Assembly: GCA_017417465.1 (NCBI GenBank)
Contig: JAFPZD010000025.1
Location: 1-37,569 of the forward strand
Direction of reading: 5' to 3'
Source: Prevotella sp.
GTDB taxonomy: Bacteria > Bacteroidota > Bacteroidia > Bacteroidales > Bacteroidaceae
DNA: 37,569 nt
Part shown: in pieces, positions 4,245-37,569 of the stretch
How positions within the stretch are numbered: position 1 is the stretch's first letter
How the letters are laid out: every line of letters starts with the position of its first letter
Position numbers and translations under genes: made by a program
The notes under the pieces: generated by a model
What the model saw: only the letters and a program-made list of their open reading frames with translations
Told to the model about the DNA's origin: nothing
Database searches by the model: none

Positions 4245-5534
4245 TCACTTATAGACCAGTGTTAGAATGCGTTCTTCTTGGAAGAGCGCATTCGCTGTCT
4301 CTTGGAGGTCGTAAGGCGTGAGGCCTTCGATGTGGCGCATGATGTCGTTGAGGTCGCGCAGCTTGCCAGAGTGGAGGTAGTTCTTGGCAAAGTCGAGGGC
4401 AAACTGTTCGCGGTTGTCGCTGGCAATGGTCAGCTGTCCCTGCAGCTGGCGCTTGGCGGCTGTCAGTTGGCGGTCGTTCAGGGGATGGCTCATCAGGCGG
4501 TTCAGTTCCGTGCGTACCAGTCGGCAGCAGCGCTGTACGTCGTCAGGGTCACAGCCGAAGTAGACTGCCCACAGCCCCATGTCGCTATAGCTCACCATCG
4601 AACTGTCGACGGTGTAGACCAGCCCACGGCGTTCGCGCAGCGCAATGTTAAGGCGTGAGTTAAGGCCAGGGCCGCCAAGGATATTGTTCAGCAGATAGAG
4701 CGACCAGCGTCGCGGGTCGTCGGCGGCAAAGGCCGTGGAGCCAATCATCACATGCGCCTGATGGGTGCCACGATGGCGGATGATAGTGCCAACGGCCCCC
4801 CCTACGGCCCCCGAGGGGGCCATGCCCGAGCTTTGCTCGCCTACCCGTAGCCTTTCTATAGTTTTGCTGGCGGACTTATCTATCGTGTCCCCCTCGGGGG
4901 ACGAAAGGGGGGCTTCAGGGGCTTTTGGGGCTCCTTTTGCAATTTTCGCAAAGTCGATGTCGCCACTGGCAAAGAAGACGCAGTTCTCTGGACGGTAGTG
5001 ACGAGCCGTGAAGCGGTGAGCATCGTCGGTGTTGTAGCTTCTGACCTTCTCGCGCGTACCTAATATATTATGTCCTAAAGGATTGCCAGCAAAGAGCAGG
5101 TTCTCGAACTCGTCGTAGATAAGTTCGGCGGGTGTGTCCTCATAACTCTCTATTTCCTCGCACACCACCTCGCGTTCCTTCTCAACCTCGGCCTGCGGGT
5201 ACTCACTACAGAAGACGATGTCGAACAGCACGTCGACGGCCCGCTTGAAGTGGTTACGGCTGATGGCACAGTAGTAGATGGTGTCCTCCTTGTTCGTGAA
5301 AGCATTCAGCTCGCCGCCAACACCTTCGATGGCATTGATAATCTGTACGGCCGAGCGCCGCTGTGTGCCTTTGAACGAAAGGTGTTCGCAGAAGTGAGCC
5401 AGTCCCTCCTCGCCCGGCAGCTCATGGCGGGAGCCGGCCTTCACGCCGATGCCGCAGTAAACGACGGGCGACGCCGACGGCAGGTGTATGATGCGCAGCC
5501 CGTTGTCGAGCGTGCCGATGTTGTAGTTTCCCAT
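4245..5534 (-). CDS. M16 family zinc peptidase with an apparent in-frame repeat insertion
   Basis: A predicted cytoplasmic insulinase-family metallopeptidase of the processing-peptidase type. The inverted zinc motif HxxEH is HFCEH at residues 47-51, and the downstream acidic helix containing CEEIESYEDTPAEL supplies the third ligand region. The C-terminal M16 half has the usual NSRLNIALRERRGLVYTV segment. There is no signal peptide. At 429 aa it is slightly longer than typical single-chain members, and the excess lies near residues 197-248. That segment is low-complexity, Pro/Ala/Ser-rich and is encoded by a dispersed repeat (see the entry at 4790-4945). Its removal would leave the two M16 halves joined by an ordinary linker. 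The substrate is unknown. Confidence 0.92.
   Translation of the reverse strand: MGNYNIGTLDNGLRIIHLPSASPVVYCGIGVKAGSRHELPGEEGLAHFCEHLSFKGTQRRSAVQIINAIEGVGGELNAFTNKEDTIYYCAISRNHFKRAVDVLFDIVFCSEYPQAEVEKEREVVCEEIESYEDTPAELIYDEFENLLFAGNPLGHNILGTREKVRSYNTDDAHRFTARHYRPENCVFFASGDIDFAKIAKGAPKAPEAPLSSPEGDTIDKSASKTIERLRVGEQSSGMAPSGAVGGAVGTIIRHRGTHQAHVMIGSTAFAADDPRRWSLYLLNNILGGPGLNSRLNIALRERRGLVYTVDSSMVSYSDMGLWAVYFGCDPDDVQRCCRLVRTELNRLMSHPLNDRQLTAAKRQLQGQLTIASDNREQFALDFAKNYLHSGKLRDLNDIMRHIEGLTPYDLQETANALFQEERILTLVYK
4790..4945 (-). repeat. Dispersed repeat inserted in frame in the M16 peptidase gene
   Basis: The segment is C/G-run rich, with GGCCCCCGAGGGGGCC-type palindromes, unlike the surrounding coding sequence. 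Positions 4818-4855, read on the minus strand, match intergenic sequence at 32044-32081 at about 34 of 38 positions. In both places the frame would read ERLRVGE or QRLRVGE followed by (Q/R)SSGM. No stop or frameshift is introduced. The boundaries are approximate. Confidence 0.65.
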
Positions 5535-26530: not shown

Positions 26531-26645
26531 AATTGAGAATTTAGAATTGAGAATTGAGAATTGAGAATTAGGCTAACGCCGTCCCCGTCTACAGAAGGTA
26601 TGGCGTGAGCCCAATTCTCAATTCTCAATTTTCAATTCTCAATTA
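26531..26645. repeat. Composite element: 41-bp palindromic core flanked by inverted GAATTGA heptads
   Basis: Left heptads (26531-26570), core GGCTAACGCC...GGCGTGAGCC (26571-26611), then inverted heptads (26612-26645). The core is the reverse complement of the one at 37526-37569. The right heptads contain the metF stop; the left ones begin 2 bp after the lrp stop. The element fills the convergent gap and may form a hairpin. Confidence 0.8.
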
Positions 26646-31247: not shown

Positions 31248-31332
31248 GCCAGTGTAGGGGCAGGCCCATTCTTGCGTCCCTGCGGTAGCAAGCGAGCGCA
31301 GCTCGGGAATGGGCCTGCCCTACATTGGCGGC
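31248..31332. repeat. 24-26 bp inverted repeat around GGCAGGCCCATTC / GAATGGGCCTGCC
   Basis: The left arm (31248-31271) and right arm (31307-31332) pair almost fully, with one extra base. The loop contains GCGAGCGCAGCTCGG. The right arm and loop recur at 32059-32099, and part of the loop recurs inside the M16 gene at 4818-4840. Confidence 0.7.
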
Positions 31333-31382
31333 CAACATCCGCGGCCAACGGATACTGGCGGCATCGCCTGGCACCTGACACT

Positions 31383-31633
31383 GACCCGTGTAAAAACCGT
31401 TAAGAACCGATGCCACAAAAAAACGTGTAAAAACCGTGTAGAATCGATGCCACAAAAAAACCGTGTAGAATCGATGCCACAAAAAAACCGTGTAGAACCG
31501 ATGCCACAAAAAAACCGTGTACCACCGATGCGTTGTTGCGGATGGGCGCTGCGCCCAGGATGTTGTCCGTGTTCATTCGGTGGTTGGATAAGTTGTTCAG
31601 GTTGTGTGGGTTGTCTTAAAAAAAAGGCACACT
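31383..31633. repeat. Long repeat copy A with expanded 27-bp tandem units
   Basis: It starts with TGACCCGTGTAAAAACCG, continues with five or six 27-bp units of the core CCGTGTAGAATCGATGCCAC plus an A-run, and ends with a unique part to GGCACACT. Positions 31488-31633 match copy B (31870-32018) with only a few differences. Confidence 0.8.
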
Positions 31634-31783: not shown

Positions 31784-31855
31784 GCATATCATCAGGTTAA
31801 TGCACAGACGCTCCCGTTTGTGCAACCGTTTTTCTTTACACGCACTTAAGACAGT

Positions 31856-32018
31856 GACCCGTGTAAAAACCGTGTAGAACCGATGCCACAAAAAAACCGT
31901 GTACCACCGATGCGTTGTTGCGGATGGGCGCTTGCGCCCAGGATGTTGTCCGTGTTCATTAGGTGGTTGGATAAGTTGTTCAGGTTGTGTGAGTTGTCTT
32001 AAAAATAAAAGGCACACT
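31856..32018. repeat. Long repeat copy B
   Basis: Starts TGACCCGTGTAAAAACCG and ends GGCACACT like copy A, but has only two 27-bp units. The two copies differ by an extra T in GCGCTTGCGCCC, a few substitutions and the tandem unit number. Confidence 0.8.
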
Positions 32019-32019
32019 G

Positions 32020-32100
32020 GCCCTTGGGCCAACGGGCTGGCACAAAGGCTACGGGTAGGCGAGCGCAGCTCGGGAATGGGCCTGCCCCTACATTGGCGGC
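32020..32100. repeat. Mosaic repeat with GGCGAGCGCAGCTCGGGAATG
   Basis: Contains the 38-bp word shared with the M16 insertion (32044-32081) and the right arm shared with the inverted repeat at 31307 (32059-32099). It closes the 1.1-kb gene-free region before the C10 peptidase; 32101-32173 shows nothing recognisable. Confidence 0.7.
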
Positions 32101-35200: not shown

Positions 35201-37439
35201 CTATATGATCAAGCGTAGCATCAGCAGCCATCTGGAGGAGACGGTGACGGTGGCCGCGGCTGACTTTCGGCCGTGGGGCGACACGGTGTTAGACACGCTG
35301 ATTGACGGCGCGGCGCAGGGCTTTACCCAGGTGACACCCGAAGCACCTTATGGCGCCGACTGGATGGAGCCTGGCTGGCCTCGTCCGACAGGCTGGTTTG
35401 TCCACATGCCCATATGGGCCGAAGGCCCGGGCAGCCGCACCCTGAAGTATGTCTATCAGGGCACAGGGCCGACCACCATCAGTTACATGCATTCAATTGA
35501 CGGTTACTTTTGGCAATATGGTGAGTTCAAAATGTATTGTAAGGTGAATGGTGAAGTCATTGAGTCCACAGTCCGTGAAAGTGTCAATGGGGCAACCATT
35601 CCGGGGATAACGCTGCTGAAAGACACCATCACATTCAACGCGACTGGCAACGATGTCATCGAGTGGGTGTGCGAAAAGATGTACTGGAGCAACTGGGCCG
35701 ACGACAATGGCCGACCATACTTCATCGGGAACATTACGGTGATCGACAAGCAGGCGTATAGCGTCAAGGAGATAGAGCTGATGAAATTCGACACGAAGGT
35801 GCGCATTCCGCAATTCAACCAGGTGAACGTCAGCGTCTGGCGCGGCGACACGAAGCTTGCCGACGGCGACAAGGTGGCGATTGGCGACGAGGTGGTCGTA
35901 GACTACCGTGCCGCCCGTCCTTATCTGATCAAGGAGGCTGGCGGCGGCGAGATGTGGAAGACGGTGACGCTGAGCAAGGATGACTTCCGGCTGAATGGCG
36001 TCGAAGTGCTTGACACGCTGATCGACGGTGCTGAGCAGGGCTTTACGGAGGTGACGCCCGAGTCGCCTTATGGCACCGGGGTCGATGACGAGAATGAGGG
36101 ATGGCAGTGCCAGTCAGGCTGGTTTGTCCACATGCCCACTTATAAACAAGGCACTGGCAGCCGTACGCTGAAGTATGTCTATAAGGGCACGGGTCCGACA
36201 ATCATCAGTTATGTACACTCCATCGACGGCTACTTCGAACAGTGGGGTTGGTTCAAGATGTATTGCAAGGTGAACGGTCAGGTCATTGCGTCCACAGTAC
36301 GTCAAAGCATCTATGGTGCAACCATTTCGTGGCAAACGCTGCTGAAAGACACCATCTCGTTCCAGGCCACGGGCAACGACGTCATCGAGTGGGTCTGCGA
36401 AAAAATGTTTAGGGGCACTTGGGCCGACGACGGTGGCCGCCAATACTTCGTCGGAAACATTACGGTGATCGACGAGCTGGCATATAGCCCCGAGAACGTG
36501 AAGCTGACCGAAGCGACTGCTAAGCTGCACATTCCGCAGGCCGACCACATGGCCGTCAGCGTCACACGCGACGGCATGACGCTCGACGATGGCGACGAGG
36601 TGAACATCGGCGACAAGCTCGAGGTTACCTACACGGCCGACGAGGGCTATCAGATAATGGGGCAGACGGGCCGTGAGCTGGTGGACAGCGTGACACTGAG
36701 CGCCGACGATTTCAAGTCGGTTGCCGACTGCCTGATTGACACGCTGATCAACGGTGCTGAGCAAGGCTATACGGAGGTGACGCCCGACAACCTGTATGGC
36801 GGAACGACCGAAGCTGAAGGCTGGCCACGCACCACGGGATGGTTCACCATCATGGCAGACCGAAGTCACACCACCGACGTCAAGACCTTAACGTACACCT
36901 ATACTGAGACTGGGCCCACGACCATCAGCTTCGTGCAGAACCTGAGCAGTCCGTTTATACAGTATGGCAAGTTCATCCTGTACTGCAAGGTGAATGGCCA
37001 TATCTCGGAATCGACCGTGCACGACTATACGGTAAATCCAATCGAAAGCTATGAAACGCTGTTGTTCGACACCATCTCATTTAATGCAACGGGCAACGAC
37101 GTCATTGAGTGGGTCTGCGAAAAGAAAGGTATAGGCTCATGGACTGACGGTGGACGTCCGTACTACATCGGAGAAATCACTCATAATTCAGAGATGTTTA
37201 CGATACCTGCCTACGAGGCCGAGCTGGCAACCCTGAGGGGTGACGTGAATCTCGACGGACAGGTCGGCATCGGCGACATCGTGAGCATCACCAATGTCAT
37301 GGCCGGCATCTTCCCAGAGGATATGGACGAGGAGGCCATCGCAGCGCTCAAGGTTCGTGCCGACGTCAACGGCGACGGCGAAGTGGGCATCGGCGACATC
37401 GTCACCATCACGAACATCATGGCAGGAGGACAGGAGTGA
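32244..37439 (+). CDS. C10 (streptopain-like) cysteine peptidase with repeated modules and a dockerin-like end
   Basis: A secreted 1731-aa protein. It begins with a signal peptide (about residues 1-27), then a Spi-like propeptide (about 28-130: VTPEQAEQSARAFLDSR...YYVFNVGEDAGFVMVSG). The C10 catalytic domain has Cys178 in SAAGCAAIAMAQVMNYY, His320 in GGGHGFVVDGYDG, and the NWGWGGHNDGYF segment. Ig-like linkers follow (about 400-860). Next come four short units beginning near 864, 947, 1187 and 1429 (VSVARGDTPLADGDQV type). The last three are each followed by a roughly 150-170 residue module starting DTLI(D/N)GAxQG near 1017, 1257 and 1499. The end (1665-1731) has two RGDVNLDGQVGIGDIV / RADVNGDGEVGIGDIV repeats, dockerin-type calcium loops. 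Host-protein degradation is plausible by family. Confidence 0.9.
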   Translation: MKRLHFPLIALLLATVLSIVGTMEALAGHVTPEQAEQSARAFLDSRQRAGQSARLKMARRQPMTQASDNAAYYVFNVGEDAGFVMVSGVDRTPAILGYTDSGTFDATKLPADVRAWFDGYAEQLSYLERTEGRYEAPRVANSWEPVGPLLMTKWDQNSPFNDQCPIDPSTGNRSAAGCAAIAMAQVMNYYQYPSWTAATIPAYTTKTQKISMPAVDPTSIDWDGMRFVYGNMANDKQKNAVAWLVLLCGQSVEMDYGSKGSAAVSLLAVNALQNYFGYDKTVRNIRRSDFTASEWESLIYAEVAAERPVFYSGQSVGGGHGFVVDGYDGEGLFHINWGWGGHNDGYFRLSVLNPYTTTEVGASSSTDGFSFQQEAIVGIQHGTDEVANERLTVGKISASGGTTYTRSGNGSNFTNVKATTTCYNIAGITYTFNFGFALYDASGKMVGDAPLFVYNSVEMDNYAMFSDLETTLNFGAGLANGDYWIVPVSRTDANGAWNPCYGADVFRLKAIIDGETLTLEEPSVSLTAQLRTTGACEAGKSLPLTATVTNNGSMFNDEIYIFVDGQKAGARTLSLEGGATADFEIDFIPQSGGSKQVMLAYIKDNEYVAFAQTTVSVAAAATNSLSTAITVENLSSGKLTVDNASVKIVITNNGQTKYEQAVEADLMYYNEDDGYYYILDYLTQDISVKAGGVAEPRFQFLNVPSGIKAMVALRYFSNGKMTFAQPYGTPFDVSYTPKGLIHAKSLTLEGADANNVLQEPTAVITATVTNRGDANASYVPIIIELFRRNDSNGNYFKVDEDRGELDIPQGSSASLRITFDGLERGAHYKAKVGCASYSRVPFVSNDMELNFSVAPPAPVSGTLHIPQINHVTVSVARGDTPLADGDQVTAGDQLTITYTAESPYVIKGSGSNTLVETVTLTNDDFVSEEYTVKVVEVELPAGSAPLIFPDIRHVDITVARGGTPLAEGDLVVIGDQLTVGYESELPYMIKRSISSHLEETVTVAAADFRPWGDTVLDTLIDGAAQGFTQVTPEAPYGADWMEPGWPRPTGWFVHMPIWAEGPGSRTLKYVYQGTGPTTISYMHSIDGYFWQYGEFKMYCKVNGEVIESTVRESVNGATIPGITLLKDTITFNATGNDVIEWVCEKMYWSNWADDNGRPYFIGNITVIDKQAYSVKEIELMKFDTKVRIPQFNQVNVSVWRGDTKLADGDKVAIGDEVVVDYRAARPYLIKEAGGGEMWKTVTLSKDDFRLNGVEVLDTLIDGAEQGFTEVTPESPYGTGVDDENEGWQCQSGWFVHMPTYKQGTGSRTLKYVYKGTGPTIISYVHSIDGYFEQWGWFKMYCKVNGQVIASTVRQSIYGATISWQTLLKDTISFQATGNDVIEWVCEKMFRGTWADDGGRQYFVGNITVIDELAYSPENVKLTEATAKLHIPQADHMAVSVTRDGMTLDDGDEVNIGDKLEVTYTADEGYQIMGQTGRELVDSVTLSADDFKSVADCLIDTLINGAEQGYTEVTPDNLYGGTTEAEGWPRTTGWFTIMADRSHTTDVKTLTYTYTETGPTTISFVQNLSSPFIQYGKFILYCKVNGHISESTVHDYTVNPIESYETLLFDTISFNATGNDVIEWVCEKKGIGSWTDGGRPYYIGEITHNSEMFTIPAYEAELATLRGDVNLDGQVGIGDIVSITNVMAGIFPEDMDEEAIAALKVRADVNGDGEVGIGDIVTITNIMAGGQE

Positions 37440-37569
37440 ATTGAGAATTGAAAATTAGGAATTGAGAATTGGGCTAACGCCGTCCCCTTCGTGAATTGAG
37501 AATTGAAAATTAGGAATTGAGAATTGGGCTAACGCCATACCTTCTGTAGACAGGGACGGCGTTAGCCCA
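37437..37569. repeat. Composite element: duplicated heptads plus a 44-bp palindromic core, at the window end
   Basis: A segment of about 45 bp (GAATTGA heptads plus GGGCTAACGCC) occurs twice, at 37437 and 37492, 55 bp apart; the first copy contains the C10 peptidase stop. The second runs into a complete hairpin core, GGGCTAACGCC...GGCGTTAGCCC (37526-37569), which is the inverse of the core at 26571-26611. The element may continue beyond the window. Confidence 0.8.

Follow-up and report, generated by a model that had tools for sequence, protein, structure and literature searches.

The window, that is, the whole stretch of 37,569 nucleotides analysed here, is contig C88 of a Prevotella genome (G000; 4.42 Mb in 278 contigs, 90.8% complete and 5.5% contaminated). 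On its minus strand, positions 4245 to 5534 hold an M16 peptidase gene. As the first-pass annotation of this DNA had stated, its frame is kept open (429 codons), and both M16 halves are recognised by Pfam (PF00675, 7e-34; PF05193, 5e-26). The gene carries a composite palindromic insert (4795..4915, minus strand), which encodes APLSSPEGDTIDKSASKTIERLRVGEQSSGMAPSGAVGGA and consists of one element, here called A, together with 33 bp of a second, nested element, B. The inverted arms of element A are located on the minus strand at 4880..4915 (the 5′ arm on the gene strand, AAGCCCCCCTTTCGTCCCCCGAGGGGGACACGATAG, delimited by sequence comparison) and at 4795..4821 (the 3′ arm, GGCCCCCTCGGGGGCCGTAGGGGGGGC), and the two pair with each other in the RNA fold. 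Nested element B (4820..4855, minus strand) was delimited by an inverted-repeat pair and by alignments; it lies in frame and contributes RLRVGEQSSGM to the protein. Directly upstream of the element, AAGCCCC-like units can be read from the sequence (4916..4940, minus strand; KGAPKAPE in the protein), and runs of this kind also adjoin some other copies of element A. The RNA of the insert (4795-4918) is predicted to fold at -63.4 kcal/mol (z -4.4), a stability reached by 0 of 200 shuffles.

Element B also stands alone in intergenic DNA of the window (32044..32082, plus strand; L016), where no coding frame is present by the genic rule given below. The first-pass annotation had matched 4818-4855 to 32044-32081, and indeed inverted copies were recovered at 4817-4855 and 32044-32082 (39 nt, 90% complementary). 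The related word which it had placed at 31292..31316 (plus strand) is a partial B-type repeat, whose 25 bases are identical to the copy at 32044 and recur exactly within 32040-32100. The hairpin of element B is GTAG-tagged (GGGTAGGCGAGC..GCTCGGG, read directly), and the word GGGCTGGCAC borders many B copies. The claim that a dispersed repeat lies in frame in the M16 gene therefore stands; the insert as a whole is not the repeat at 32044, since B is merely nested in the larger element A. The annotation had further proposed a search for copies in the genome, and bases 32-70 of the insert query match seven places in G000 at E 5e-8 (window copy included), besides further weaker matches. Chance or low complexity as the source of the match was ruled out by multi-copy BLAST matches in G000 and in two further genomes, G059 and G250.

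The window contains other repeats as well. Inverted arms of 95 nt (80% identity), 112 nt apart and built of runs like CACCTCCCTTAGACCTCCC, are found at 1953-2254. Inverted runs of AATTGAGAATTGAGAATT and AATTCTCAATTCTCAATT lie at gene ends (26531-26644 and 37439-37567; 74-nt arm pair, 95%), and tandem repeats of 27 bp (AAAAACCGTGTAGAACCGATGCCACAA) at 31377-31530 and 31850-31930, together with a pair of 76-nt copies (31550 and 31933).

Element A is a palindrome of about 86 bp with nested inverted arms, each of its two arms containing a smaller palindrome. The clearest copy lies in lpxB of G000 (contig C59) and reads, on the gene strand, AAGCCCCCCTTTCGCCCCCCGAGGGGGGCACGATAG, a short spacer and CTATAGAAGCCCCCTCGGGGGCCGTAGGGGGGGCT. 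As RNA, four copies of A fold at -51 to -63 kcal/mol (z -4.0 to -8.6), and 0 of 200 shuffles reached such stability. The 33 bp of B occupy the identical position in the 3′ arm of A in both the M16 gene and a gene on contig C254 (AraC-type domain). This identical junction in two genes suggests that A and B were copied as one unit, a reading drawn from two copies.

For the M16 protein, 80 relatives were kept out of 313 found. The nearest are uncultured Prevotella, several of them derived from roe deer, and the first six are 67-72% identical. In the comparison with orthologs that the first-pass annotation had proposed, only L060 (70%) and L064 (68%) among the 80 show this type of loop; an ancestral loop of the M16 family was ruled out on this reading of the alignment. 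Both carry element A at the M16 site without the nested B. Among the 55 of 81 M16 sequences that could be anchored, the anchor-to-anchor length is 73 residues in our protein versus a median of 54 in those relatives whose linker lacks an inverted repeat. The net gain is thus about 19 residues, instead of the added loop of roughly 50 residues that had been claimed, because the native linker has lost a portion.

Outside the linker, the M16 protein of L060 is 96% identical to that of L064. Their A elements share an identical 38-bp core and spacer and lie in opposite orientations, both in frame; the spacer was found in none of the other loci compared. An in-place inversion through the arms would be the simplest reading of this pair, with two insertions from one source as the alternative. 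L065, about 90% identical, carries another palindrome at that linker. Altogether, 16 of the 81 M16 linkers contain an in-frame inverted repeat that was matched by 0 of 100 codon shuffles, and unrelated palindrome sequences are found among them (L063, L065, L066, L071, L079 and L085; also listed are L108 and L137). Hence this linker repeatedly receives or generates coding palindromes, a phenomenon that is wider than element A.

BLAST with the 160-bp insert as query gave at least 78 pieces in G000; at least 91 were obtained in G059 (99% complete) and at least 62 in G250 (98% complete). Grouping these by hand resulted in at least 27, 40 and 23 sites of element A, respectively. The site counts are lower bounds, since only 40 first-look candidates were scored per genome (40 of 56 in G000, 40 of 81 in G059 and 40 of 45 in G250). 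The G000 count omits an exact core judged to be chance (C56, L038), most one-mismatch matches and the weak piece C206:74880, and retains two weak sites on C91 and C138; in G250, only pieces with a retrieved locus were grouped.

A copy was scored as genic if the frame is open across it and the codon usage is coding-like on both sides, the element itself being excluded. By this rule, 29 of 40 sites are genic in G059 (30 of 41 rows, one site occurring twice) versus 107 of 164 control windows, and 20 of 23 in G250 versus 60 of 92; for G000 the number is 18 of 27, counted without control windows. The GltX and FKP copies of G000 fail the rule, yet they are genic by domain matches. None of the 14 stand-alone B copies of G000 with a fetched locus lies in a gene by the same rule; it is A that occurs in genes, not B. 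Compared with the control windows, A does not avoid genes and its enrichment is at most mild; in G059 it is hardly commoner in genes than the control windows are. As the rule requires an open frame, out-of-frame copies are scored as non-genic. Three of the eleven rule-failing G059 rows (L243, L291, L299) are coding-like on both sides in differing frames; they could represent either disrupted genes or adjacent ones. Most of the non-genic copies examined begin 1-20 bp past a stop codon (L215, L226, L234, L235, L236, L155, L027 and others), where they may act as terminators.

The hosts of element A are diverse. In G000, Pfam and NCBIfam matches identify GltX, LpxB, XseA, FKP, DPP-IV, Omp85, GH2, GltD-like, UvrA-like, APH-RapZ and Kdo transferase proteins, among others, as well as a GH35 protein at a contig end and a LolD-like protein with the copy at its C-terminus. 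G059 adds Dxs, CTP synthase, glutamine synthetase III, RlmN, M3 and M50 peptidases, a class-V aminotransferase, OmpA, DUF2264 and others. UvrA-like genes carry A at differing places in the three genomes (L151 on C5 of G000, L293 on C36 of G059 and L317 on C16 of G250). Some A insertions are common to two species, and five pairs of frame-1 insertions (the frame described below) are common to G059 and G250.

Direct comparison with relatives is possible for several hosts. The GltX of G000, the single match above the family cut-off in that genome, has 34 unaligned residues at the element versus 2 in PDB 6brl. The LpxB linker is longer in G000, and an A-like element occurs in 1 of 29 aligned relatives (G097); some of the other relatives have a different extra sequence and most have none. 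In glutamine synthetase III the element is absent from all 18 aligned relatives, which are 77-94% identical to the G059 protein. The relatives read DHIE, 11-12 residues such as KADVSDILAMAG, and KQGLKMD, and the G059 protein reads DHIE-APHSSPEGDTIDIKSIEAPSGAVGGA-KHSWKMD; by this alignment, the element appears to have been gained and the native loop of 12 residues lost. A second glutamine synthetase III, 75% identical, is encoded in G059. Judged by alignment only, A falls in the linkers of M16 and LpxB and in a loop of glutamine synthetase.

One reading frame is used in 65 of the 67 genic A copies of the three genomes, with the peptide APxSxPEGxTI...TIEAPSGAVGGA (consensus also given as APxSxPEGxTI...TI(E/V)xPSGxxGGA). 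The two off-frame copies lie at the same place of the related genes L227 and L314 (MacB/FtsX-type, as judged from L227). In the LpxB copy, either orientation leaves the loop frame open, and the remaining forward frames contain stops. The loop frame alone is open in 27 of the 45 genic frame-1 copies of at least 78 bp. Where a second frame is open, the loop frame is used by 18 copies versus 2 (p 2e-4, assuming even odds and ignoring shared descent). The stops in the other frames make the frame bias less telling and explain it in part; an even-odds statistic of p 1.5e-17 was dropped, as the second frame is interrupted by stops in many copies. With respect to orientation, 52 of 65 copies are forward, 10 reverse and 3 unclear; in this set, GltX and FKP substitute for the C91 and C138 sites. 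Differences between copies amount to 0.18, 0.17 and 0.18 at the three codon positions in the 5′ arm and to 0.09, 0.12 and 0.13 in the 3′ arm. Third positions are hardly more variable, which provides no convincing indication that the peptide itself is under selection; with this little or no third-position excess, selection acting on the encoded residues of inserted copies was rejected.

Across the genus, a query of 93 bases without the outer 5′ arm found A in 55 of 299 genomes, own genome included (E 1e-4; many of the genomes are incomplete). Spread through the order was rejected, as G000 alone out of 393 genomes gave matches (E 1e-5); in this draw, only two other genomes of the genus are among the rows listed. 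The A-bearing Prevotella are probably of rumen type. Concerning possible movers, the A core was found beside none of 19 Y1-transposase loci (flanks covered, some loci cut short), two of which contain only the 8-base word GGGGGGCT, and a RAYT as mover of A is therefore unsupported. For element B, the word GGGCTGGCAC flanks the Y1 gene of L141 on both sides; as the B core itself is absent there, this provides no more than a lead towards a RAYT origin for B. A further Y1 gene of RAYT type (L140; G000 C91:5147-5485 and flanks) is embedded among arrayed copies of CGGGGGCTGATACCCCCGCCTGTATTCTGCCGCCCTTTCAGGGC, a third palindromic repeat, which is present on both sides. A MITE of an insertion sequence would have terminal inverted repeats and a target-site duplication. 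Inverted arms are seen in A; no target-site duplication was found at A insertions, and at the glutamine synthetase site 12 native residues are missing.

The M16 insert is very likely one of the many copies of a palindromic element that occurs in a Prevotella clade and persists in genes as an in-frame loop. We base this reading on the dispersal of the element and its anatomy of inverted repeats, its presence in frame within many recognised genes, the near-exclusive use of one frame among genic copies, one gene at which relatives have an empty site and one site with both orientations. Element A would have spread through the genome, possibly by a transposase acting in trans. Its one frame that is open in either orientation, and thanks to which it would survive inside genes, specifies a loop of about 25-30 residues that is rich in Pro, Ala, Ser and Gly and presumably flexible. 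Copies would be retained where they fall in tolerant loops or in linkers between the domains of core enzymes, in some cases at the expense of the native loop, and frame-breaking copies would be purged by a presumed selection against other frames. In the M16 gene, a piece of the normally intergenic B lies within A, likewise in frame. The genic copies are presumably translated.

Several other explanations have to be weighed. The palindromes may have been born locally, through template switching in linkers that tolerate them, with base composition as the only reason why the copies are alike. The inverted repeats in the 16 M16 linkers, several of them unrelated to each other, make local birth plausible for that wider phenomenon; A, however, keeps its sequence across 80-100 bp from one unrelated gene to the next (identity of 77-89% for the 30 best pieces in G059), and for A itself we regard a local origin as improbable. 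Even less probable is that A is a terminator- or REP-like intergenic hairpin that overlaps genes by accident, the genic copies being misread or broken genes. The stable folds, the position of most examined non-genic copies shortly after a stop codon and the 11 of 40 G059 sites that are not gene-internal by our rule would fit such a hairpin. Nevertheless, frames with recognised domains cross the copy in GltX, LpxB, XseA, Dxs, CTP synthase and others, and some genic copies have been inherited by two species.

That the insert goes untranslated, because the ribosome skips it or the mRNA loses it, is the least probable of these readings. It could draw on the very stable hairpin predicted for the mRNA, but skipping needs no frame, and in G059 the frame is open across 29 sites versus at most three that possibly break a gene. 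A bolder extension of the in-frame loop reading is that A is an invertible, frame-neutral linker module, which could flip inside working genes because the loop frame is open both ways (as the L060 and L064 pair would exemplify), import other repeats and progressively displace native loops of core enzymes across the Prevotella clade. We consider this a tentative idea, rather doubtful at present.

Several families of palindromic repeats are known with which A can be compared. Rickettsia palindromic elements, which the first-pass annotation had aptly named as the precedent, are described in the available text of the sources as short palindromes lying in frame in unrelated genes, including housekeeping genes, and adding peptide to the product; coding palindromes are also described there from Wolbachia and Methanocaldococcus (PMC10969869, PMC2996958). 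Element A resembles them as a multi-copy palindrome within one genome, in frame in unrelated and in housekeeping genes and with a conserved encoded peptide. It differs by its occurrence in another phylum, its GC-rich nested arms, the opposite orientations at one site and the nested second repeat. By these descriptions they appear to be the closest known kind, the likeness being one of behaviour.

The GTAG/CGTC REPs are mostly intergenic; intragenic ones, often dimers encoding 20-30 residues, are described within uvrA and tRNA synthetases, and Bacteroidetes are named once, with CGTC repeats, in the text available (PMC3733652). Like these intragenic REPs, A is palindromic and present in genes of the uvrA type and of a tRNA synthetase. 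Unlike GTAG/CGTC REPs it is mostly genic in three genomes and has no core at the 19 Y1 loci. CGTC stands beside the hairpin in some A copies, M16 included, and CGCC or CGGC in others. It is B that is like the GTAG REPs, in its GTAG-tagged hairpin and intergenic location. PARCEL repeats, as far as the available text describes them, are palindromic coding repeats thought to be mobile, which form tandem amphipathic domains associated with membrane proteins (PMC2996958). Element A shares with them the palindromic coding repeat and differs in forming a single loop in unrelated enzymes. As the first-pass annotation had already assumed, no description of coding palindromes in Prevotella was found in the literature searched (preprints and most subscription journals lay outside its coverage).

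Element A is a selfish-like palindrome in dozens of protein genes of some Prevotella, and the M16 peptidase is one host among many. Coding selfish palindromes are best known in Rickettsia and Wolbachia, and their usual explanation is weak selection in intracellular life. High-copy coding palindromes in core enzymes of Prevotella allow this explanation to be tested in a genus of which hundreds of relatives have been sequenced. They also provide dozens of natural enzyme pairs that differ in the presence of the loop, one of them apparently flipped in place.
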